Assembly: GCF_017298635.1 (NCBI RefSeq)
Contig: NZ_CP071182.1
Span: 5,122,001-5,186,000 of the forward strand
Source of the DNA: Paenalicyclobacillus mengziensis
GTDB taxonomy: Bacteria > Bacillota > Bacilli > Alicyclobacillales > Alicyclobacillaceae
Length of the DNA stretch: 64,000 bases
Direction: 5' to 3'
Numbering within the stretch: the stretch's first letter is position 1; every line of letters begins with the position of its first letter. Positions 44,115-58,870 of the stretch are shown one piece after another. Made by a program: the position numbers and the translations under genes. The notes beneath the pieces are model-generated. The model was not told the origin of the DNA. It did no database searches and saw nothing but the letters and a program-made list of their open reading frames with translations.

Positions 44115-44315
44115 TTAAGCGTACGAATCAAAATTTTGCCCTTTTCCGGGCGTTGATATGGAGGCCGTGATGGCAGATTCAACCTTGTTAAACCCGTTTA
44201 TCAACGCTGTAGCAGCTGATGTTTGGGCATCCATGGTCTTTTTCAATACGTCGATTCCGTATTGAGTCTGCGTTTGATGTTGAGCAAAAGCTGAGATTGA
44301 CGCCGCATTGATCAT
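44115..44315 (-). CDS. YjfB-family putative motility protein
   Basis: A 66-residue protein resembling YjfB (ISAFAQHQTQTQYGIDVLKK; MDAQTSAATALINGF). GAGGTGAAG precedes the ATG. YjfB-like proteins are small, of unknown mechanism, and co-occur with motility genes. It lies 162 bases downstream of cheA on the same strand, with a terminator beyond, consistent with being the last gene of the chemosensory transcript. Confidence 0.75.
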   Translation of the reverse strand: MINAASISAFAQHQTQTQYGIDVLKKTMDAQTSAATALINGFNKVESAITASISTPGKGQNFDSYA

Positions 44316-44477
44316 ATTTCTTCACCTCTTCGTACATTCAATCAGATCCACAAGTTCTTGTCCAATCTTCTGCAAAGGCATCCCGCTCACCGTCATATGG
44401 AAGTCGCCTGGGGCGATATAACCCGTCACACTTTCAAGGACTTGATGATGCTCCGCTTCAGTCCGACGAGTTCCAAT

Positions 44478-46565
44478 TCATCGCCTCCGGCCGGACTGTT
44501 CACGGGATTTGGAAATTGTGGCAATATCCAAAATGAGCCCTACCAAGCCATCACCAAGAATCGTCGCACCTGCAATCCCGTCTGGTGTCTCGACGCGGTC
44601 AGCGAGTGTCTTCTTCACAATCTCCTGATTCCCGTTCAATTCGTCCACAACCATCGCGATACGTCTTTCCCCTGCACCGACAACCACAACTGGCAAGTAT
44701 TTTTTCACGGCTGGCTCGTCGTGGAGATGAAAATACTCCCGCAGATACACAACTGGCGTCGCTTGTCCGCGAAGCAGAATCGTCGGCCGGCCATGAACGC
44801 TTTGAATGGAATCCGGTTGAATCCGGACAATCTCAAAGACATTGCTAATCGGGATGACAAACGTCCGATCCGCTACACCGACGAGCAGCCCTTTAATAAT
44901 GGCTAGCGTCAGTGGTAACGTGATGCGAAAGATGGTGCCCTTCCCAAGCTCGGTGTGTATCTCAATCGTTCCATTCAGATGTTCAATATTGTTACGCACA
45001 ATGTCCATGCCGACACCGCGACCGGAGATATCAGTCAACTTGTCGGCCGTCGAGAACCCGGCACGAAAGATGAGGTAGAGACACTCTGTTTCACTCAGCT
45101 GGTCTGCCTCTTCCTGCGTAATCACCCCTTTATCGATGGCGGCCTGACGAATACGCTTGGCATCCATTCCGGCGCCATCATCTTGAACCGTGATAACCAC
45201 TCTGTTATCCTCGTGACTCGCCTTCAGGGAAATCGTTCCCGTTTCCGGCTTACCCGCTTGTACCCGTCTTTCAACGGGTTCAATGCCATGGTCCACAGCA
45301 TTCCTGATGAGGTGAATCAAAGGGTCCGCAATCTCTTCGATAACTGTGCGGTCTAACCGTGTTTCCTTCCCCTCAATCGACAAGTGGACATCCTTATTCA
45401 GGGCGTGGGCCAAATCCCGTACCACCCTCGGAAACCGGTCGAACAACGATTCTATCGGGAGCATCCTCGCCGTCATGATGTTCGCTTGCAGTTCACCGAC
45501 AATCCTCGAAACATGGGTTGAAACGTCGCCCAACGTGGTCACGTCTCGGTCCGCCTTGTAACGTTTACTCAAGTTCCGATTCACTTGTTCAAGACGGGCC
45601 TGGTCAATCACTAATTCTCCAACCAGATTCATGAGCGTCTCCAATTGTTCAACGTCCACTCGAACGGATTGTGCCTTTCGTTTGGGGCGGTGGGCTGCTT
45701 GCTTGGGTGGCCCTTCTTCTGATACTTGTCGCGTATCTAATGCCTTCACTGGACTTATTTTTTCTGACGTGTCATCTGGTTCGTTGGACACGGACTTGCT
45801 GGCATCAGCCTGGTCATTCTGCTCGAGCGTGAATACGTCGACACGCGCATACTCTGAAGTGGCTACACGACTTCGGACTCCGTCCGGTTCAGCTTGTGTT
45901 ACGAATACTACCTCGAAGTTGGAGAGCTCATCGTCCTCCGTGCTCTCCATTTCCTCGAGCTGAGGTGTGACTTGCAGGACATCTCCGAGCTCTCGCAAGC
46001 TATCCACAGCAAGGTAGGCACGGACACCACGCATGATAGAACTATGGTCAAAGTAAAATACAACCCGATATCCACGCTGCCCCTGTTTAACCGCTTCGAG
46101 AGCTCTAAGCTGGGCCTCCGTCGTGAGCATCATTTCTGTCGTATCTGCAGACGCACTTTTACGAACTGATTCCTCGTCCAAGTTCTTACCTGCTAAGAAC
46201 GACCTTAGTGCTGAAATCAGTCGGTCTACCTGTACATTCGGTTCCTCGTCGCTTGAAACACTCGTCTTGAAGTCTTGGAGTCCATCAAAACACTGGAACA
46301 GCAACTGAATCATGTCGCTAGACACATGCAATCGGTGATTTCGTACTTCATCAAGAACTTGTTCCATCTCGTGGGTCAAATCTTTCATGTCCTCAAAACC
46401 CATTGCCGCACACGATCCTTTTAACGTGTGAGCTACACGGAACAATTCTTGAATCGTGTCATCGTCGTCTCCGTTTGCTTCCAACTCAATAATTTTCTGC
46501 TCCATCTGAACCAACATTTCATCCAACTCTTCGAGGAAGGCACCCATAAAATCGGATGTATTCAT
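44478..46565 (-). CDS. cheA: Chemotaxis histidine kinase CheA
   Basis: A 695-residue CheA. It has an HPt domain with His46 in RVAHTLKGSC, a P2-like spacer (about 130-290), and a dimerisation helix pair (VDVEQLETLMNLVGELVIDQ). The HATPase shows LIRNAVDHGIE, VQDDGAGMD and GRGVGMDIV. The C-terminal CheW-like domain has VADRTFVIPISNVFEI and TPVVYLREYF. It overlaps cheW by 4 bases (ATGA), so translation is coupled. It receives signals from the two receptors and phosphorylates CheY. No cheB, cheR or cheD is present nearby. Confidence 0.96.
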   Translation of the reverse strand: MNTSDFMGAFLEELDEMLVQMEQKIIELEANGDDDDTIQELFRVAHTLKGSCAAMGFEDMKDLTHEMEQVLDEVRNHRLHVSSDMIQLLFQCFDGLQDFKTSVSSDEEPNVQVDRLISALRSFLAGKNLDEESVRKSASADTTEMMLTTEAQLRALEAVKQGQRGYRVVFYFDHSSIMRGVRAYLAVDSLRELGDVLQVTPQLEEMESTEDDELSNFEVVFVTQAEPDGVRSRVATSEYARVDVFTLEQNDQADASKSVSNEPDDTSEKISPVKALDTRQVSEEGPPKQAAHRPKRKAQSVRVDVEQLETLMNLVGELVIDQARLEQVNRNLSKRYKADRDVTTLGDVSTHVSRIVGELQANIMTARMLPIESLFDRFPRVVRDLAHALNKDVHLSIEGKETRLDRTVIEEIADPLIHLIRNAVDHGIEPVERRVQAGKPETGTISLKASHEDNRVVITVQDDGAGMDAKRIRQAAIDKGVITQEEADQLSETECLYLIFRAGFSTADKLTDISGRGVGMDIVRNNIEHLNGTIEIHTELGKGTIFRITLPLTLAIIKGLLVGVADRTFVIPISNVFEIVRIQPDSIQSVHGRPTILLRGQATPVVYLREYFHLHDEPAVKKYLPVVVVGAGERRIAMVVDELNGNQEIVKKTLADRVETPDGIAGATILGDGLVGLILDIATISKSREQSGRRR

Positions 46566-46981
46566 TGCATCCCCTCCTCAATCAAGTGCTCAAGGTCCAA
46601 GATACTAACCAGCATGTCACCTTTACATCCCAATCCGCTGAGATATGCGACCTTCCCTTGATGAGGGGGTGGCTGAATGTCTTCGAAGGAGAGGACTTGA
46701 TGCACCCGGTCAACAATGATACCCATGTGTCCCTCACGCTCTGTCACGATGACAACCCGTGTGTGCTTGGTATATTCGGCATCCGGAAGTCCCAACCGCT
46801 CTCTAAGACTGACGATAGGGATGATTTGTCCGCGTAATTTAATGACACCCAGTACGCAAGCTCTTGTGTTGGGGACATGCGTAATCTCTTGCATCCGGAT
46901 GATTTCGTGTACCTTTAAAATAGGTATGGCATAGTTGTCGGAATTGACTTGAACGCCAACATACTGTTCCGTATTCGTCAT
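46562..46981 (-). CDS. cheW: CheW coupling protein (copy 1)
   Basis: A 139-residue CheW, started at the ATG at 46981 behind GGGAG rather than the GTG one codon earlier. Motifs: YAIPILKVHEIIRMQEIT, RACVLGVIKLRGQIIPIVSL and MGIIVDRVHQVL. Bridges receptor and CheA. The same N-terminal pattern (TEQYVGVQVNSDNYAIPI) recurs in the second CheW at 48792, indicating a recent cassette duplication. Confidence 0.95.
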   Translation of the reverse strand: MTNTEQYVGVQVNSDNYAIPILKVHEIIRMQEITHVPNTRACVLGVIKLRGQIIPIVSLRERLGLPDAEYTKHTRVVIVTEREGHMGIIVDRVHQVLSFEDIQPPPHQGKVAYLSGLGCKGDMLVSILDLEHLIEEGMQ

Positions 46982-47017
46982 CACTTTCTCCCTTCTTCGC
47001 TTGCTGTTTCGGTTGGA

Positions 47018-48661
47018 TTAGTTGATTTTGAATACGGAGACATACCCATTGAGTTCTTCTGCGAGTTGTGCCAACGACTGCGATGAAGATGCGGTTTCTT
47101 CACTACTTGCCGCGGATTCTTCGGCAGCTGCTGCAATACTTTCGACAGCCATGAACACTTCAGAAGTTTGAGCGGATTGTTCCTCACTGGCTGCCGCAAT
47201 CTCTGTAACCTTATCTGCGGATGTGATAACCATCGAAGCAATCTCTTTAAAGGCTTCACCACTCAGTCGAGTCGATTCGGCGCCTTCCTGAACCGCCTGG
47301 ACACTGGTGTTTGTATTCGCCTGCATTGTCTTGATGATGGCTGTGATTTGTTTTGTTGCTTCACCACTTCGCTCTGCCAGTTTGCGGACCTCATCAGCCA
47401 CGACTGCAAAACCGCGGCCCTGCTCTCCGGCACGCGCGGCCTCAATCGCGGCATTGAGAGCTAACAAGTTTGTCTGGTCTGCAATATCATCAATGACTTC
47501 CACAATCTCACCGACACGATTCGAGTCTTCACTGAGTCTAGCGATTTGCTCGCTGACCCTGTTCATACCCGATACAGATTTCTGGACAATGTCTTCACCC
47601 TTGTGCGCTACATCAACGGTTTTCGATGACAATTCAGCCGCTTGTTCAGCATTTTCAGCGACCGAATGGATGGCTGTTGATAGTTCTTTAAAGAGCTGGG
47701 TGACGGTGTCGGCAGATTCCGCCTGTGTTGTACTCCCTGCTGCCACCTGCTCCGTTGCAGCAAATATTTGTTGCGATGCAGCTGAGACATTCTCTGCAGC
47801 TAAGAGAACTCCAGAGATAATGTTGCGTAGTTTCAAAACCATGTTGTTTACGGATTCAGATAATACTCCAACTTCGTCCGTGGACGTGATTTTTAAAGGT
47901 TCCACAGTAAGGTCACCGTCGGCAACCATCGCAACCTGTTTCGCTATCCCTTTGATTGCCCGTGACAGGCGATTTGAGAATAGAATCAGCAAGATAAGCC
48001 CAAGTACTACTGCAATTCCAAGCGTAATGATTAAATTCACGAGAATGGTCGTTGCACCACTGTTGAAATCGCTCATATATGAACCAACGGCGATAACCCA
48101 TCCCCATGCAGGTGCTTTGTCGGAGTATACAATTTTTTTCTGGAGTTGATTGGGATGTCCCGGTAGAGGCCAAATGTAACTTGTATATCCTCCTCCGTTG
48201 TCCGCTTTATTGATAATATCTTGAACCATATACGTCCCATTTTTGTCTTTAGCACTCCATACATTTTTACCTTGTGGTACAGTTGGATTGGCTAGTGAAT
48301 TCCCTTTCTGATCATAGATAAAGAAATAACCTCGATGATTACCGATATTATAGTTCGGATTGATAGGACGCATTCCATTTGATTGTACTGGTCCAAGCAC
48401 CATTTCCTTAACCTGTTCTTGCGCCTCGGCGAGAGACATATTTCCTGCCTCAACTTGCTTGTTCAAGATGTTAATTGTCGCATTCACCAATTGAACATCA
48501 TTTTTTAACGCGATTTCACTGCTCTGATTCAATTCCCCTTTTGCATCTATGTATGAAACAATACCAATGACGACACTTGGAACAATGAGAAGGACAAGCG
48601 AAATCGACATTAACTTACTTCGGACTGATGACTTGAATCGAAACTTAAATATATTTTTCAC
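47018..48661 (-). CDS. Methyl-accepting chemotaxis protein with Cache sensor
   Basis: A 547-residue receptor. I choose the GTG at 48661 (AGAGG 8 bases upstream). The first membrane helix is at about 15-35. The extracellular single-Cache domain follows (about 40-185; [29 protein letters not shown]), then the second membrane helix, HAMP, and a signalling domain with the hairpin tip [20 protein letters not shown] and [20 protein letters not shown]. Cache domains bind small organic acids or amino acids. It pairs with the adjacent CheW. Confidence 0.94.
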
Positions 48662-48791
48662 TACGTTCACCTCTACCCTTTCATCGTTGACACTGAAGTT
48701 GACACTGACAGTCGGGGATTGCGCACCTTCTCGAACACTTGCTCCACCATGCGTCTAAGTCTTCCAGGAAAGCTGAGTCAGCCCTGCCCTT

Positions 48792-49199
48792 CTAGTTGTC
48801 CATCAATTTGGCAACATCGAGGATGCTCACTAAAGCATCCCCCTTGCGCCCAATTCCCTGCAGATACGTAACATGTTCGTCTTCCGGCGGTGGTTGAATG
48901 TCTTCGAAGGACATCACCTGGTGCACGCTGTCGACAATCATCCCGATGACGCTATCGTGGTCATTGACCACAACGATACGGGTATGTTTGTTGACCTCTT
49001 CTTCGGGCAGGCCTAACCGTTCGCGGAGGCTTACAATGGGAATAATCTGCCCACGCAAATTGATAACCCCGAGTACACACGAGCGGCTGTTCGGAATGTG
49101 CGTGATCTCCTGCATCCGAATAATTTCGTGAATCTCGAGAATTGGGATTGCGTAACTGTCTGCGTTGGCACGAACTTCAACATACTGCTCCGTAGTCAT
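48792..49199 (-). CDS. cheW: CheW coupling protein (copy 2)
   Basis: A 135-residue CheW started at the ATG at 49199, 7 bases after GGGGAG. Motifs: YAIPILEIHEIIRMQEITHI, RSCVLGVINLRGQIIPIVSL and IGMIVDSVHQVMSFEDIQPP. It is strongly similar to copy 1 over its full length. It follows the four-helix-bundle receptor gene, so each receptor has its own CheW. Confidence 0.95.
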   Translation of the reverse strand: MTTEQYVEVRANADSYAIPILEIHEIIRMQEITHIPNSRSCVLGVINLRGQIIPIVSLRERLGLPEEEVNKHTRIVVVNDHDSVIGMIVDSVHQVMSFEDIQPPPEDEHVTYLQGIGRKGDALVSILDVAKLMDN

Positions 49200-49234
49200 C
49201 CTCATGCTCCCCTTTCATGATTCTTGTTGGATGA

Positions 49235-50866
49235 TTAGTTGACTTTGAATACGGACACATATCTGTTGAGTTCTTCTGCCAATTGCGCGAGAGACTGAGT
49301 AGAAGATGCCGTCTCTTCACTGCTGGCCGCTGACTCGTGAGCCGCTGCAGCAATCGTTTCCACCGATACGAGAACTTCAGATGCCTGTGCAGACTGTTCC
49401 TCACCGGCAGCTGCGATTTCCGTCACTTTGTCTGCTGAAGAATTGACCATTGAGACAATTTTACTGAATGCGTCACCACTTTTTTGCGTGGAAGCAACGC
49501 CGGCCTGAACTGCTTGTACACTCGCCTGTGTGTTTGCTTGCATGGTTTTAATGATGGTGTTAATTTGCTTCGTGGCTTCACCGCTTCGCTCAGCGAGTTT
49601 TCGGACTTCATCGGCGACGACCGCAAAACCGCGACCCTGGTCTCCTGCGCGAGCAGCCTCAATCGCTGCGTTGAGCGCGAGAAGATTGGTCTGATCAGCG
49701 ATATCATCAATCACTTCCACGATTTCCCCAACCCGGTTTGAGTCCTCGTTAAGTCTTGCAATTTGCGCACGAACCTTGTTCATACCGGATACCGAGTCCT
49801 GGACAATTACCTCTCCATTGCGCGCCACGTCCGCTGTCTTCGATGACAGCTCTGCAGCCTCTTCTGCATTTTTAGCGACCGAGTTTATCGCTGTGCTAAG
49901 TTCCCTAAACACCTGGTTGACTGTTTCGGCCGACTCAGCTTGTGCCGTGCTTCCAGAAGCGATTTGTTCTGTGGCTGCGGCGATTTCTTGTGAGGCTGCG
50001 GAGACATTTTCCGCTGCGGATAATACGCCGCTCATAATTTCGCGCAGCTGTGCAACCATTGCATTGACTGACTGAGCTAGTTGTCCCACTTCGTCACGTG
50101 TATTGATGTCTGTCGTATCTCTCAAATCACCCTTTGCAACCTTCGAAACGAGGGCAACCACCTTTTGGAGTGGGCGCGTGATCATTTGTGAAATGGCGAT
50201 GGCCAACCCTAAGCCGATGACGATGGACAGAATGATGATACCAATCAGAATCCATCGTGCTGTGTTCACTAGTGCATGTGCGTTCGTATCTGCTTGGCTC
50301 GCGCTTGTATTGCTCATCGTCATCAACTGTGACAGCAGGCTTGACAATTTATTTCCTTCAGAGTCGAGTGTCGACGATGTCAATGAGGACGCACTCATGA
50401 TGTTTCCCGAATTGAGATCGGACTCAACCTTCTGCAGAGCCGCTTCGTACGCCTTCCATGCCGTCCCGACTTTACCATTCACGACCTGTTGCTCAGCATT
50501 GCTCAAACTTGTGCTCTCGTAGGCACTGAGTTGTGTCTTTGCATTCTTCATGTCAGTGTTTGTTGATGTCAAAAACGTGTTGGGTTCACCAAAAGCGACC
50601 ACCGCACCTTGAATATCCGCACGCGATATTGCGATATCCTCCTGCAATTGTGCGAGGTATTCGATAGGTTGCAGGTTGTTCGTAAACACATGATTAAGAC
50701 TACTTCCAAGTCTGCTGCTCGTTACCAATCCGCTTGTGCCTACAATAATGATGAGTACAATCGAAACTAAAAATGATCCGATAATTTTCAATGAGATCTT
50801 GAGATTTTCTAGCCACTTCATCGAGATCTTGAGATTCTCTAGCCACTTCATCCAAAACCGTTTCAT
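49235..50866 (-). CDS. Methyl-accepting chemotaxis protein with four-helix-bundle sensor
   Basis: A 543-residue receptor, ATG at 50866 behind GGGGGATAAGG. The N-terminus carries an internal duplication: [10 protein letters not shown] occurs twice in tandem before the first membrane helix. An extracellular 4HB_MCP-type helical sensor (about 50-190), second membrane helix, HAMP, and a signalling domain nearly identical to the other receptor ([40 protein letters not shown]) follow. Ligand unknown. Confidence 0.93.
50788..50850. repeat. 30-bp tandem duplication in receptor gene start
   Basis: GAGATCTTGAGATTTTCTAG-type sequence is repeated directly with a 30-bp period (ending CCACTTCATC each time), encoding the doubled [10 protein letters not shown]. 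In frame, so the receptor gains 10 cytoplasmic residues. Confidence 0.85.
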
Positions 50867-51031
50867 CCTTATCCCCCATCTCTTTTGTGAATTTGTACGT
50901 GCCAACCATGCTCCAGTCGCGTATCAATCTCGAAAGACTTTATATAAGCAAATCCTTCAGTCTCTTCTAAGATTTTTGCGCCGTCACACGACTTAATTTT
51001 TGTTTTGGGTTCTCAAAGGATACACGGCCTT

Positions 51032-51388
51032 TCACACCAACTGGGCAATTTCACTCAGCACCTTGTCCTTCTCAAACGGCTTCACGATAAATCCCTTGGC
51101 ACCCGCTTGTATCGCCTCCATGACCATCTCCTTCTGCCCCATCGCGGAACACATTACAATCTTGGCATCAGGATGCTTTTCCTTAATTGCACGTACCGCT
51201 GCGATTCCTTCCATGACAGGCATCGTGATATCCATCGTGACTACATCAGGACTATGTATGTCGTAAAAATCAATGGCTTCTTGTCCATTACTTGCTTCTG
51301 CCACAACTTCGTGTCCACCCTCGCTTAACAAAGTTTTTAACATCATTCTCATAAACGCTGCATCGTCCGTAATCATAATCCGTGCCAT
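51032..51388 (-). CDS. cheY: CheY response regulator
   Basis: A 118-residue single-domain receiver: acidic pocket Asp8-Asp9, phospho-acceptor Asp53 in VVTMDITMPVM, Ser81 switch position, and Lys103 in GFIVKPFEKD. It is the output of CheA and would bind the flagellar switch or another target. Lies 30 bases downstream of cheX in the same run. Confidence 0.96.
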   Translation of the reverse strand: MARIMITDDAAFMRMMLKTLLSEGGHEVVAEASNGQEAIDFYDIHSPDVVTMDITMPVMEGIAAVRAIKEKHPDAKIVMCSAMGQKEMVMEAIQAGAKGFIVKPFEKDKVLSEIAQLV

Positions 51389-51418: not shown

Positions 51419-51877
51419 TTACTTTTCGTCAATGATGAGAATTATAGTTAATTCCCCAGTGTTTTGGAGGTCCAACGACACCTTGATTCCGTGTTGGAAT
51501 CCTGCCATCTTCGTTTCTCCAACCAGTACGGTTGGAGGTGTAATATTAAGTATCAATCCAGTTTCCGACAAGGCTGATACCGCATTGCCAGCAACCATGT
51601 TCCCGACTTCACCAACAAAGCTCTCCAGCATGTCCCCTTCTAATGCGACTCCGAACATCGCCGTGCCCAAGTTTGTGAAAGTGGCCCTACTTGCATTCAG
51701 AATTAGACGTCCTGGTAGATCGCCAGCCAGTCCAATGAGGACACCCGTGTCGGATTGAACGAATGACCCCTCTACCAGTGAAGGTCCGGAATTCCGGTTA
51801 CTTTGCACCGGCACAACAGATTTCACGGCATCTAACGTACTGTTGAGTAGATCCGTTACGGTTGCAGCTACACCCAT
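51419..51877 (-). CDS. cheX: CheX-type CheY-P phosphatase, first gene after the c-di-GMP riboswitch
   Basis: A 152-residue CheX/CheC-family protein from the ATG at 51877 (AGGAGAGAAG upstream); the longer reading runs into the riboswitch leader and is rejected. The phosphatase motif E-x-x-N is visible as Glu90 and Asn93 in SFVGEVGNMVAGNA. It dephosphorylates CheY-P in related systems and, with no cheB/cheR here, may be the main signal-termination step. It is the first gene of the run cheX-cheY-mcp-cheW-mcp-cheW-cheA-yjfB. Confidence 0.88.
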   Translation of the reverse strand: MGVAATVTDLLNSTLDAVKSVVPVQSNRNSGPSLVEGSFVQSDTGVLIGLAGDLPGRLILNASRATFTNLGTAMFGVALEGDMLESFVGEVGNMVAGNAVSALSETGLILNITPPTVLVGETKMAGFQHGIKVSLDLQNTGELTIILIIDEK

Positions 51878-51930
51878 CTTCACTTCTCTCCTATCTCTAC
51901 TGGCCATCACAGGGTGAACGGTTCGCAAAT

Positions 51931-51965
51931 GAAAAATGCGCCCCATATTGAACACAGGACGCCGC
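51931..51965 (-). terminator. Expression-platform terminator of the cheX riboswitch
   Basis: On the minus strand GCGTCC ... GGGCGC (6 pairs, one G-T) is followed by ATTTTTCATTT, between the aptamer and the cheX ribosome site. Confidence 0.7.
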
Positions 51966-51971
51966 CATAAG

Positions 51972-52060
51972 GAAGAATATAGCAACCCGGCGATCATAGG
52001 TGAATACCCGTAGACCCGTAGCTTTGTGACACAGAGTTTCCTCTGTTGTACCCGTATTCA
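51972..52060 (-). ncRNA. c-di-GMP-I (GEMM-I) riboswitch upstream of cheX
   Basis: Minus strand. The tetraloop hairpin ACAGAG-GAAA-CTCTGT (P1b) is followed by the conserved joining segment CACAAAGCTACGGGTCT and the P1a/P2 return strand GATCGCCGGGTTGC; GAATA at the 5' end pairs with TATTC at the 3' end. This is the GEMM-I architecture. A terminator hairpin follows before cheX. Compared with the copy at 58783 the core reads CACAAAG instead of CGCAAAG. It should make chemosensory gene expression respond to c-di-GMP; whether binding turns genes on or off cannot be read safely. Confidence 0.9.
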
Positions 52061-52357
52061 AATATTCGTTTTTACGCACACGTCAATTAATATGAGCAAC
52101 CAAACAGCAATTGTCAAGACAATTTCCGACATGATTTCCAATAGTTCGACACTAAACGAAAATGAGGTTAATGCCGTTGTCCCCACGGATTACGTTCTCA
52201 TTCTGCTCATCTCGATTACGTCGCTTGCGTAACATTACAGAGACACTTAGGTAAGTGATGCCACTATACGCCTAGGTAAGGGGTAAGTTCGGGTGAATGC
52301 ACGGTGTGTGGCTCCATTTTGGATACCCATAAAGAGACGGAAATCCACTGATAAACT

Positions 52358-56162: not shown

Positions 56163-58715
56163 TTAACAGTCATCAGCAAGCCTCCGATACAAAACGTTAT
56201 ATTCAACTTCGAAATTCCGGTCGCGTTGGTTGCCGACCTGAAGCAGTGTATTTGAATGCCTAATTTTCATAGCAATCAGACCGGTGTCACTCATCACCTT
56301 CACGGCTGTCTCAGTAGCGGACTTTGTTCCTAACTCATGGACACGGACTGTGTTCTTAGCGATCATAAATCCTCCACGTACGTTCCCTTTGACGAGGATT
56401 GTTTCTTCAGACTCCAAAGTACTCGTGTAGACCCCGGCACCTTTTACAATAATTTTACCAGTTGCTCTTAGTACGCTGGATGTTACGGTGTTCGCTCGTA
56501 TATCCGCAGGTTCCGCGGAGGACATTGCCTGAACACGGTCAAGAAAATTCAACAGCTGTTCGTGAAGAAAGTTCACGTCTTGTTCATGGATTTTCATACG
56601 CTGAATAACAAGCCACTTTGACCGCAATTCGTGGCTTAATTGTGCAAATGCAGCATCTCTGGCGGAAAGGTCTCTGAAGTTATTCGAGAGTTGTTCAAAG
56701 GTGCTGAGCAGCATTGGGTGACGCTGTTCCAGAAGTACGTGAGCAATCATCGGAACACTGGTTACTTTACTGGGGTATTTTTGTGCATGCTCAAGCAGAG
56801 TCTTGTATTCCTGATGAAATCGTTCGTATTCAGTTATGCATCTTCTCAGCGTAGGCTCTGTCTTCTGATATAAAAATCTCGACTGTCCAGCGATAACTTG
56901 TGAGCCCACAACCGAACCGGATACAAAGACACCTCGTTCTCCCATTACGGTTGCACACATGATGCTACCGTGAACTGTAATTGTGCCCGAGGATTGGATA
57001 TAAGCACCGTCAAGGATGGACCCATAAATAATCACATCCCCATCAAAATCAATGTTTCCGTCCTTCGAGGTCAGATTATGTCCAATAACCAGCTCAGGAA
57101 CCACATCAATCTTGTCCTTCGTGAATATCAGACGTCCGTTACGCAGAGCGACGAGCATGTCCCCAATTTCAACGACACCTGATCCGATTTTTGGTGATGC
57201 CTTCAGCAAGGGGTGGTCAACCTGTTCTCCGAATACGTTGTATCCGGGGACTCCGGGTGTTCCGCGAGTTAACGTGGCTATTTTCATTCCTACAGTTACT
57301 GTGGAAGTTTTCATACGACGATGTAAAGGGTCGTACACATGTGGTCGTTCTATTTCTATGTAGCTATCAGGCGTACCTGGAATGGGCCTCTTACCGCGTA
57401 GTACCGTTAATTCAATGGTTTCTCGCGCATTACAGATTTGTTCAACCGCCGTCGCATCTAACGTCCCTTGGTATCCAGAGGACTGTAACAGTTGGGCGAC
57501 TGATTCAATGGTCAATGGGTCTGGATACACGGCTTCAGATTTGATTTGAAGAACGATGTGGGCCGATGCTTCGGTGTCAGCCAATCGATACCGTTCACCT
57601 AGTGTAATTTGGCGAACTGCAACGATTTCCATTTTGTCAGGCGATTCTCGGGTAATGAGTCTACTGGTTGGATCCACGTTGTGACTTTCAACAAGAATGT
57701 GGTCGTTCTCCTGAACAAGAACTCGACCAATCGCTGGTACGTTATTTATAGTGACACTCACACGCGGGTCTGATGGGATTTCGATTGTGGCAAAGTGCCC
57801 AAGTTGCTGAGGATCACTGACGATGACTTGTCCGTGGTGAACTCGTACAGTGCCGTTTTGTTGCTCCAATTTCAGAACGACAGATCGGGCTGCACCGAAC
57901 AGGTGCTGACTTGTAGGGACGAGATGAAAGGGCTCTGGTTTCCCCCAAATATACCCCTGACTCAGGTGGATACCCGTTTGTTTAACGACATTTAAGTCAT
58001 CTGTGTTTTCGATGCCTTCCGCAACCACGCGGTCACCATCCCCCATGTAGTCGACAAGCTGAGATACCATCTTCTGCTTGGAGACGGAAGACGATATCCC
58101 GGCAATTAAGGCTCGGTCAAGTTTGATGAGGTCTGGTTCCAACTCGATAATCGATGACAGATTCGACGAACCCAGGCCAACATCATCCAAAGCGAATCGT
58201 AGGCCAATCGCTCTCAACGGACGTAACGCTGCAGCGAGGACAGTAGGGTCATATGTAATGTGTTCTGTGATCTCAAGGACAATTTGACCGGGTTCACATA
58301 AACCGCTTCTGAAGATGGATTCCAATTCAACGTGGAAAGACCGAGAAACAAGGGAACTCGGCATTACATTAATGAACAGTAACTGTTGGCTGTCACGTCT
58401 GGCTCCAATAGAAGATTGCTGGATGGCGCTTCGAATCGCCAGCAAATCGGTCTCCAGGGAATGGTTATAGTCGTGAGAAATACTAAACCAGATATCAGGA
58501 CGAATAGATGTACCACGATATGTTGGTCTACTCAGTGATTCATGAGCAAATATGTCTTGATTCATGTGATTCACGATGGGTTGAAATACCATCGGCAAGT
58601 GTTGTTTATGGATACACTCCAAAATGCTTGCGTGTACTTCCCTTACGTGTGAATTGACAAAGACCACTTGTGCCATGGTTTTTAGCTTGTTTTGAACAAG
58701 AGCCAACGGACCCAA
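56163..58715 (-). CDS. EAL phosphodiesterase domain fused to FapA (DUF342) domain
   Basis: An 850-residue two-part protein. Residues about 35-265 are an EAL domain, with HESLSRP (ESL for EAL), LFINVMPSSL, LEITEHI, FALDDVGLGSSN, LIKLDRALI, VVAEGIE and SQGYIWGKP. All usual metal and catalytic positions are kept. Residues about 290-845 are a FapA/DUF342 region: PGVPGYNVFGEQ, VALRNGRLIF, the beta-helix KDGNIDFDGDVIIYGSILDG, and a coiled-coil segment before the end. The start is TTG at 58715 behind AGAGGGTGAG; the ATG at 58676 is the alternative. A c-di-GMP-I riboswitch precedes it, so a probable c-di-GMP-degrading protein is controlled by c-di-GMP-sensing RNA. I know FapA as a separate protein; this fusion is unusual. 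Confidence 0.9.
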   Translation of the reverse strand: MGPLALVQNKLKTMAQVVFVNSHVREVHASILECIHKQHLPMVFQPIVNHMNQDIFAHESLSRPTYRGTSIRPDIWFSISHDYNHSLETDLLAIRSAIQQSSIGARRDSQQLLFINVMPSSLVSRSFHVELESIFRSGLCEPGQIVLEITEHITYDPTVLAAALRPLRAIGLRFALDDVGLGSSNLSSIIELEPDLIKLDRALIAGISSSVSKQKMVSQLVDYMGDGDRVVAEGIENTDDLNVVKQTGIHLSQGYIWGKPEPFHLVPTSQHLFGAARSVVLKLEQQNGTVRVHHGQVIVSDPQQLGHFATIEIPSDPRVSVTINNVPAIGRVLVQENDHILVESHNVDPTSRLITRESPDKMEIVAVRQITLGERYRLADTEASAHIVLQIKSEAVYPDPLTIESVAQLLQSSGYQGTLDATAVEQICNARETIELTVLRGKRPIPGTPDSYIEIERPHVYDPLHRRMKTSTVTVGMKIATLTRGTPGVPGYNVFGEQVDHPLLKASPKIGSGVVEIGDMLVALRNGRLIFTKDKIDVVPELVIGHNLTSKDGNIDFDGDVIIYGSILDGAYIQSSGTITVHGSIMCATVMGERGVFVSGSVVGSQVIAGQSRFLYQKTEPTLRRCITEYERFHQEYKTLLEHAQKYPSKVTSVPMIAHVLLEQRHPMLLSTFEQLSNNFRDLSARDAAFAQLSHELRSKWLVIQRMKIHEQDVNFLHEQLLNFLDRVQAMSSAEPADIRANTVTSSVLRATGKIIVKGAGVYTSTLESEETILVKGNVRGGFMIAKNTVRVHELGTKSATETAVKVMSDTGLIAMKIRHSNTLLQVGNQRDRNFEVEYNVLYRRLADDC

Positions 58716-58782: not shown

Positions 58783-58870
58783 ATATAGCAACCCGGCGAT
58801 CATAGACATGTCGTCTTTAGACCCGTAGCTTTGCGTCCCATGGTTTCCCATAGTTTGCCCGTATTCAATA
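58783..58870 (-). ncRNA. c-di-GMP-I (GEMM-I) riboswitch upstream of the EAL-FapA gene
   Basis: Minus strand GAATACGGGCAAACTATGGG, GAAA-type loop, then GGGACGCAAAGCTACGGGTC and ATGATCGCCGGGTTGCTATA. This is a near-textbook GEMM-I core, including GGGCAAAC and CGCAAAG. The flanking GAATA/TATTC pairing and the 3' ATATTC match the cheX riboswitch closely, so the two probably arose by duplication. Confidence 0.94.

Follow-up and report, generated by a model that had tools for sequence, protein, structure and literature searches.

The chemosensory operon running from cheX to yjfB in Paenalicyclobacillus mengziensis, an acidophilic relative of Alicyclobacillus, is preceded by a c-di-GMP-I (GEMM-I) riboswitch, which probably controls its transcription by termination and is predicted to act as an OFF switch. 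The window analysed here is a stretch of 64,000 nucleotides (G000:C1:5122001-5186000) from a genome of 5.29 Mb in 2 contigs, in which at least 18 GEMM-I copies were found (150 of 465 candidates scored).

The riboswitch leader and the chemosensory operon

The initial annotation had read a GEMM-I core and a terminator hairpin directly upstream of cheX and had proposed a search with RF01051. This search matched the aptamer over the full length of the model (1-87) with 65.7 bits (E 1.3e-10; gathering threshold 35), and the hairpin was recovered by folding (Table 1), in agreement with that reading. Aptamer positions follow Vc2 numbering. The residues G20 (52052), A47 (52025) and C92 (51982) are intact, as is the interhelical pair C44 (52028)/G83 (51991), thus fitting c-di-GMP as the ligand, and the P2 loop carries a GAAA tetraloop. 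In PMC4744006, these three residues are named as ligand contacts and this interhelical pair as universal. A double change of C22-G45 to U-A maintains the pairing, and the window aptamer has C in place of the consensus A at position 24 and U in place of A at position 43. These last two changes occur together in 3 of 62 aligned aptamers (L013, L014, and L016), all of them che-linked and the window aptamer among them. Another che-linked aptamer, L069, combines A24U with A43G, and in this alignment changes at A24 are confined to che-linked aptamers; A43 is changed without A24 to U in L077, which is che-linked, and to G in six others. The changes may be a signature of the che lineage or merely the result of common descent. 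A class Ib (c-AMP-GMP) ligand, for which an A at position 20 (G20A) is the specificity signature, was ruled out for the che aptamers, as G20 is intact. From these residues we infer that the ligand is c-di-GMP, and the riboswitch itself is an ordinary member of its family.

A predicted sigma-A promoter (52117-52089) precedes the aptamer by 26 bases. Since the promoter scan returned 13 matches against 11.4 expected, a total near chance that includes sigma-70-like matches inside the operon, the support for this promoter comes from the conservation of its hexamers, which together with their spacing are maintained in a second che cluster (see below) where the spacer between the hexamers has diverged. 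On the leader strand, no promoter-like site was found between 51938 and cheX. A separate strong promoter between the aptamer and cheX had been named in the initial annotation as the observation that would contradict it, and the sole match of this kind, at 52004-51976, is situated at the aptamer 3′ end. It was rejected as a bypass, since it is located inside the aptamer and would start transcription before the terminator. The anatomy of the leader thus speaks clearly for regulation through RNA: it has an aptamer with its contact residues, a terminator and an upstream promoter, and no promoter-like site between the terminator and cheX.

Downstream of the terminator, the genes cheX-cheY-mcp-cheW-mcp-cheW-cheA-yjfB follow on one strand with gaps of 30, 126, 29, 121, 33, -4, and 162 bases, as the earlier description of a closely spaced run had it. 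All of these genes pass the Pfam cut-offs, and they are presumably transcribed from cheX to yjfB as a single transcript. The most likely start of cheX is 51877 (ATG) or the in-frame 51883 (GTG), and the gene contains SFVGEVGN, which fits the CheC/CheX phosphatase motif. The run had also been called complete, and in this respect the description has to be corrected: genes for CheA, CheW, CheY, receptors and phosphatase are present, but the run lacks those for CheR and CheB, the enzymes of adaptation. Only fragments of cheR and cheB are left, in the last part of cheA and in the interval that separates it from yjfB, and since both genes are intact in the second cluster, the window copy is a deletion derivative.

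Table 1. Features of the riboswitch leader, the chemosensory operon and a second GEMM-I locus in the window.
Feature	Position	Strand	Evidence
Predicted sigma-A promoter, TTGACA-17-CATATT, start ~52082	52089..52117	(-)	10/12 match
c-di-GMP-I (GEMM-I) aptamer	51978..52062	(-)	RF01051 covariance-model match
Putative antiterminator 5′ strand, part of the aptamer 5′ strand, contains G20 and G21	52051..52061	(-)	MFE fold
Putative antiterminator 3′ strand, overlaps the terminator 5′ arm	51948..51958	(-)	MFE fold
Predicted intrinsic terminator, 11-pair stem 51962-51938 then ATTTTT	51932..51962	(-)	Folding, -12.8 kcal/mol
cheX, chemotaxis phosphatase	51419..51877	(-)	PF13690 9.5e-12, PF04509 8.7e-11
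cheY-like receiver	51032..51388	(-)	PF00072 1.2e-29
Methyl-accepting chemotaxis protein, 4HB sensor	49235..50905	(-)	PF00015, PF12729, PF00672
cheW	48792..49205	(-)	PF01584
Methyl-accepting chemotaxis protein, single Cache sensor (sCache_2)	47018..48670	(-)	PF00015, PF17200
cheW	46562..46984	(-)	PF01584
cheA, all five domains	44478..46565	(-)	Hpt, P2, H-kinase_dim, HATPase_c, CheW
Fragments of cheR (codons 1-21) and cheB (codons 221-246, 336-353)	44328..44524	(-)	tblastn, CheR/CheB of the second cluster
yjfB, motility protein	44115..44315	(-)	PF14070 5.4e-10
Second GEMM-I aptamer	58784..58869	(-)	RF01051 75.4 bits
EAL-FapA gene, 3′ of the second GEMM-I	56163..58715	(-)	EAL, FapA

CheA operons in the genome and in relatives

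The second che cluster (G000:C1:5198360-5207698) lies 34 kb from the window cluster, has its own GEMM-I at 5207670-5207586, and carries cheR and cheB 3′ of cheA. The two clusters share 97.9% identity across 5.64 kb and 89% in the region of the leader, cheX, and cheY, and their CheA proteins are identical. The stretch of highest identity, which may derive from recent gene conversion or duplication, aligns window positions 44461-50098 with G000:C1:5200209-5205843, and its flanking matches are at 85-91%. A GEMM-I (4624505-4624414) also stands immediately before the third CheA gene (4622197-4624353), which is followed by cheW and a receiver gene, so that 3/3 CheA genes of this genome have a GEMM-I upstream on the same strand. 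Two of the three CheB genes (4902589 and 5198390), one of two CheR genes, and four of nine MCP genes of the genome are likewise inside GEMM-I-headed runs.

The flagellar operon (2604246-2627822), with the order flhA-flhF-flhG-cheW-cheC by gene names assigned from translated ends and gene order (FliG having been identified separately), resembles the fla/che operon of Bacillus subtilis in its Bacillota chemotaxis genes and retains flhF-flhG-cheW-cheC, but it has neither cheB nor cheA between flhG and cheW, which is the usual place of these two genes, as in B. subtilis. No GEMM-I was found across two stretches covering this operon, which also contains a CheY-like gene (G000:C1:2616733-2617095). 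Hence, the initial claim that the entire CheA/CheY system is set by c-di-GMP at the RNA level is partly supported: it goes too far for CheY, given the CheY-like gene in this operon, whereas for CheA the case is stronger than first proposed, all three CheA genes being GEMM-I-headed.

GEMM-I elements were found in 40 and CheA in 34 of the 41 genomes searched, our own included. Among the relatives, 9 of 44 CheA loci have a GEMM-I upstream on the same strand, several of the CheA stretches being shortened by contig ends; at a further locus, L090, the GEMM-I is on the opposite strand. The layouts, with genes mostly named by best BLAST match to those of our genome, are GEMM-cheX-cheA (L069), GEMM-cheA-cheW (L084), GEMM-cheA-cheB (L074), GEMM-cheA-cheW-mcp-cheR-cheB (L072), GEMM-mcp-cheA (L106 and L108), GEMM-EAL-cheW-cheA-mcp-cheR-cheB (L073), and GEMM-GGDEF/EAL-mcp-cheW-cheA (L077 and L078). 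In four genomes (G002, G004, G017, and G019) the sole CheA found is GEMM-I-headed, with FliG elsewhere in the genome. This recurrence is a further argument for regulation through RNA.

On a tree of 46 CheA sequences (43 from relatives and 3 of our own, 12 of them GEMM rows, the fragment L103 being left out), the GEMM label requires at least 6 changes compared to a mean of 10.7 for shuffled labels (0/500 as low), indicating gain or loss several times. A clade of 11, which contains all 9 loci with FlhA/FlhF/FlhG neighbours, is without GEMM-I. The clade of the window CheA holds five GEMM rows and one without, that of A. ferrooxydans; a search before cheX of this orthologous cluster (TC-34, G001) with R1 and Rfam at E up to 5 found no GEMM-I, and the arrangement is thus not essential to the operon. 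Outside the order, a GEMM-I near CheA was found at 0 of 80 loci in one collection scan, one of the 80 being A. ferrooxydans, with a model that was trained on the genome's own 18 aptamers and might miss distant variants.

The presence of an RNA switch leaves room for a different output, and it is conceivable, albeit unlikely, that the control is real but serves c-di-GMP turnover, pili, or another function instead of flagellar swimming, a reading compatible with an OFF mechanism. The operon is followed, without a change of strand, by GGDEF-EAL and GAF-GGDEF genes at distances of 632 and 40 bases, respectively; a GGDEF-EAL gene is part of the riboswitch-headed run in L077 and L078 and an EAL gene in L073, and a Flp pilin gene is under a GEMM-I in the same genome. 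However, CheX, CheY, and YjfB together with CheR and CheB of the second cluster make up an ordinary chemotaxis set, and as the flagellar operon has no cheA of its own, the flagella would otherwise be without a kinase.

Predicted direction of switching

In the MFE fold of the free leader, 52061-52051 pairs with 51958-51948 in 11 contiguous pairs. This antiterminator occupies G20 and G21, thus excluding the ligand-bound fold of the aptamer, and the expression platform, as predicted by folding, consists of a terminator and a mutually exclusive antiterminator and would be able to switch. The strength of this duplex exceeds chance only to a moderate degree: its energy was reached by 44/2000 shuffled platforms and by 144/2000 shuffled 5′ strands, and in a ranking against mismatched platforms, which separated own and foreign platforms poorly, the window leader came 2/18 with its 5′ strand and 4/18 with its 3′ strand.

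In equilibrium folding, which ignores co-transcriptional kinetics, the terminator probability of the window leader was 0.001 in the free state and, once the aptamer was enforced, 0.563 in one calculation and 0.512 in another. Enforcing the aptamer likewise raised it from 0.215 to 0.959 in the leader of the second cluster (L016), from 0.000 to 0.384 in the third CheA leader (L003), from 0.200 to 0.998 in the ortholog of the latter (L084), and from 0.103 to 0.811 in L077. The OFF pattern is therefore seen in 5 of 13 che-linked leaders, while L106 showed the reverse (0.256 to 0.048) and the remaining seven (L013, L069, L108, L072, L073, L074, and L078) did not respond, the terminator being dominant with and without the enforced aptamer.

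We thus propose, with moderate confidence as to the OFF direction, that RNA polymerase would start at ~52082 and that at low c-di-GMP the aptamer 5′ strand, with the pocket residues G20 and G21, would pair with the terminator 5′ arm, preventing the terminator hairpin and allowing transcription of the che operon. When c-di-GMP is high, the ligand would hold the aptamer in its fold and leave the arm free, and the terminator would form and end transcription before cheX. A close parallel is Cd1 of the Clostridioides difficile flagellar operon, which, according to PMC9262584 and PMC4744006, also combines a GEMM-I with an intrinsic terminator, allows aptamer and terminator to coexist, and acts as an OFF switch on motility genes. 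Cd1 targets flagellar structural genes, whereas the target in the window is a chemosensory kinase operon; moreover, its antiterminator is made from the aptamer 3′ strand, as is that of the third CheA leader, in contrast to the 5′ strand used by the window leader.

A working riboswitch of opposite sign, by which c-di-GMP would raise che expression for surface sensing or a non-swimming output, seems doubtful. The precedent is Bc1, located before mcpE in the Bacillus cereus group, which shares with our operon a GEMM-I leader, terminator(s), and a chemotaxis gene downstream, and which, according to PMC11218506, turned on a reporter at the level of transcription and has a dual terminator; it governs one chemoreceptor gene, whereas the window operon includes CheA, CheW, and CheY. 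The behaviour of L106 points the same way, and G030, which has a GEMM-I-headed CheA operon, yielded no FliG. On the other hand, the aptamer of the window leader is compatible with the terminator and is broken up by the antiterminator, an arrangement that corresponds to the OFF architecture of Cd1 in PMC9262584. The folding test, too, gave the OFF pattern in five leaders and its reverse in one. The c-GAMP-sensing GEMM-I of Geobacter pilM has the aptamer fold in common with ours, but its specificity change is G20A, while the window aptamer keeps G20. It is an ON switch in which aptamer and terminator are mutually exclusive, as reported in PMC9262584, whereas in the window the two can coexist.

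It is improbable that the aptamer has decayed to a relic or makes only a minor contribution and that other promoters in or downstream of the leader mainly set che expression. The rare A24C/A43U change, the ortholog without GEMM-I, and the sigma-70-like matches inside the operon would be consistent with such decay, but the aptamer retains its ligand contacts and its interhelical pair, the leader has been retained in two copies with its promoter hexamers conserved despite spacer drift, and promoter matches inside the operon are no more frequent than chance predicts. That one of many GEMM-I copies in the genome came to lie next to a che operon by accident, with no role in its regulation, is hardly credible: the element is associated with every CheA gene of our genome and with nine CheA loci of relatives, for which GEMM-I counts and genome sizes predict 0.227 within 6 kb (Poisson 3.6e-12), and with none in the collection scan.

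Implications for chemosensory array synthesis

c-di-GMP is mostly known to act on chemotaxis via proteins, and the earlier statement to this effect is justified where the kinase operon is concerned, although c-di-GMP-I riboswitches were already known before mcp genes and a flagellar operon. The name GEMM refers to the genes for the environment, membranes, and motility with which these riboswitches are associated. GEMM-I control of the core kinase operon is an extension of the known GEMM-mcp and GEMM-flagellum cases, and no report of a c-di-GMP riboswitch before cheA was present among the matches listed in the open-licence PMC literature. New here is the hold of the riboswitch on the kinase operon, several times over: whereas Bc1 concerns a single receptor gene, here the RNA heads the operon of the core kinase, three times in a single genome and at nine loci among relatives whose gene orders differ.

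Since the two other CheA operons are also GEMM-I-led, the presence or absence of CheA in the cell would depend on c-di-GMP. The operon would probably be turned off as the cell settles down, halting synthesis of the chemotaxis machinery, and we infer that a cell committed to sessile life would cease building chemosensory arrays. If this prediction is true, the decision to build the arrays is taken at transcript elongation. More tentatively, and with the balance leaning slightly against so broad a reading, the kinase gene may, in this acidophilic order of Bacillota, have left the flagellar operon repeatedly and come under a c-di-GMP riboswitch, such that high c-di-GMP would halt every CheA by premature termination and spare the flagellar genes. 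The repeated GEMM-cheA pairing offers natural replicates for asking why, and the four other flagellated species whose sole detected CheA is riboswitch-headed make such a test feasible.

Other GEMM-I elements of the genome

Other GEMM-I targets in the genome include EAL, GGDEF, and FapA genes and a Flp pilin. The EAL-FapA gene behind the second GEMM-I of the window has, together with its GEMM-I, a paralogous counterpart at G000:C1:4881160; the position of a c-di-GMP phosphodiesterase-like gene behind a riboswitch for its own signal suggests feedback, and the folding test showed no switching direction for this leader (58869-58784). The GEMM-I at L004:1501-1588 (G000:C1:858193-858280), directly before a Flp/Fap pilin gene (L004:1657-1848, PF04964), has an A at the G20 position, as does that of L064 in a relative; to our knowledge, the class Ib signature is unusual outside Geobacter. 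Four GEMM-I elements (L001, L008, L015, and L017) lie within 18 kb at G000:C1:1091482-1109418, beside EAL, GGDEF, FapA, and histidine kinase genes, and a weak additional copy (26.9 bits) is located upstream of L008. The elements L005 and L017 are followed by very short ORFs that look secreted by eye and then by HisKA_3 histidine kinase genes (L030 and L026), possibly forming peptide-kinase pairs under c-di-GMP.
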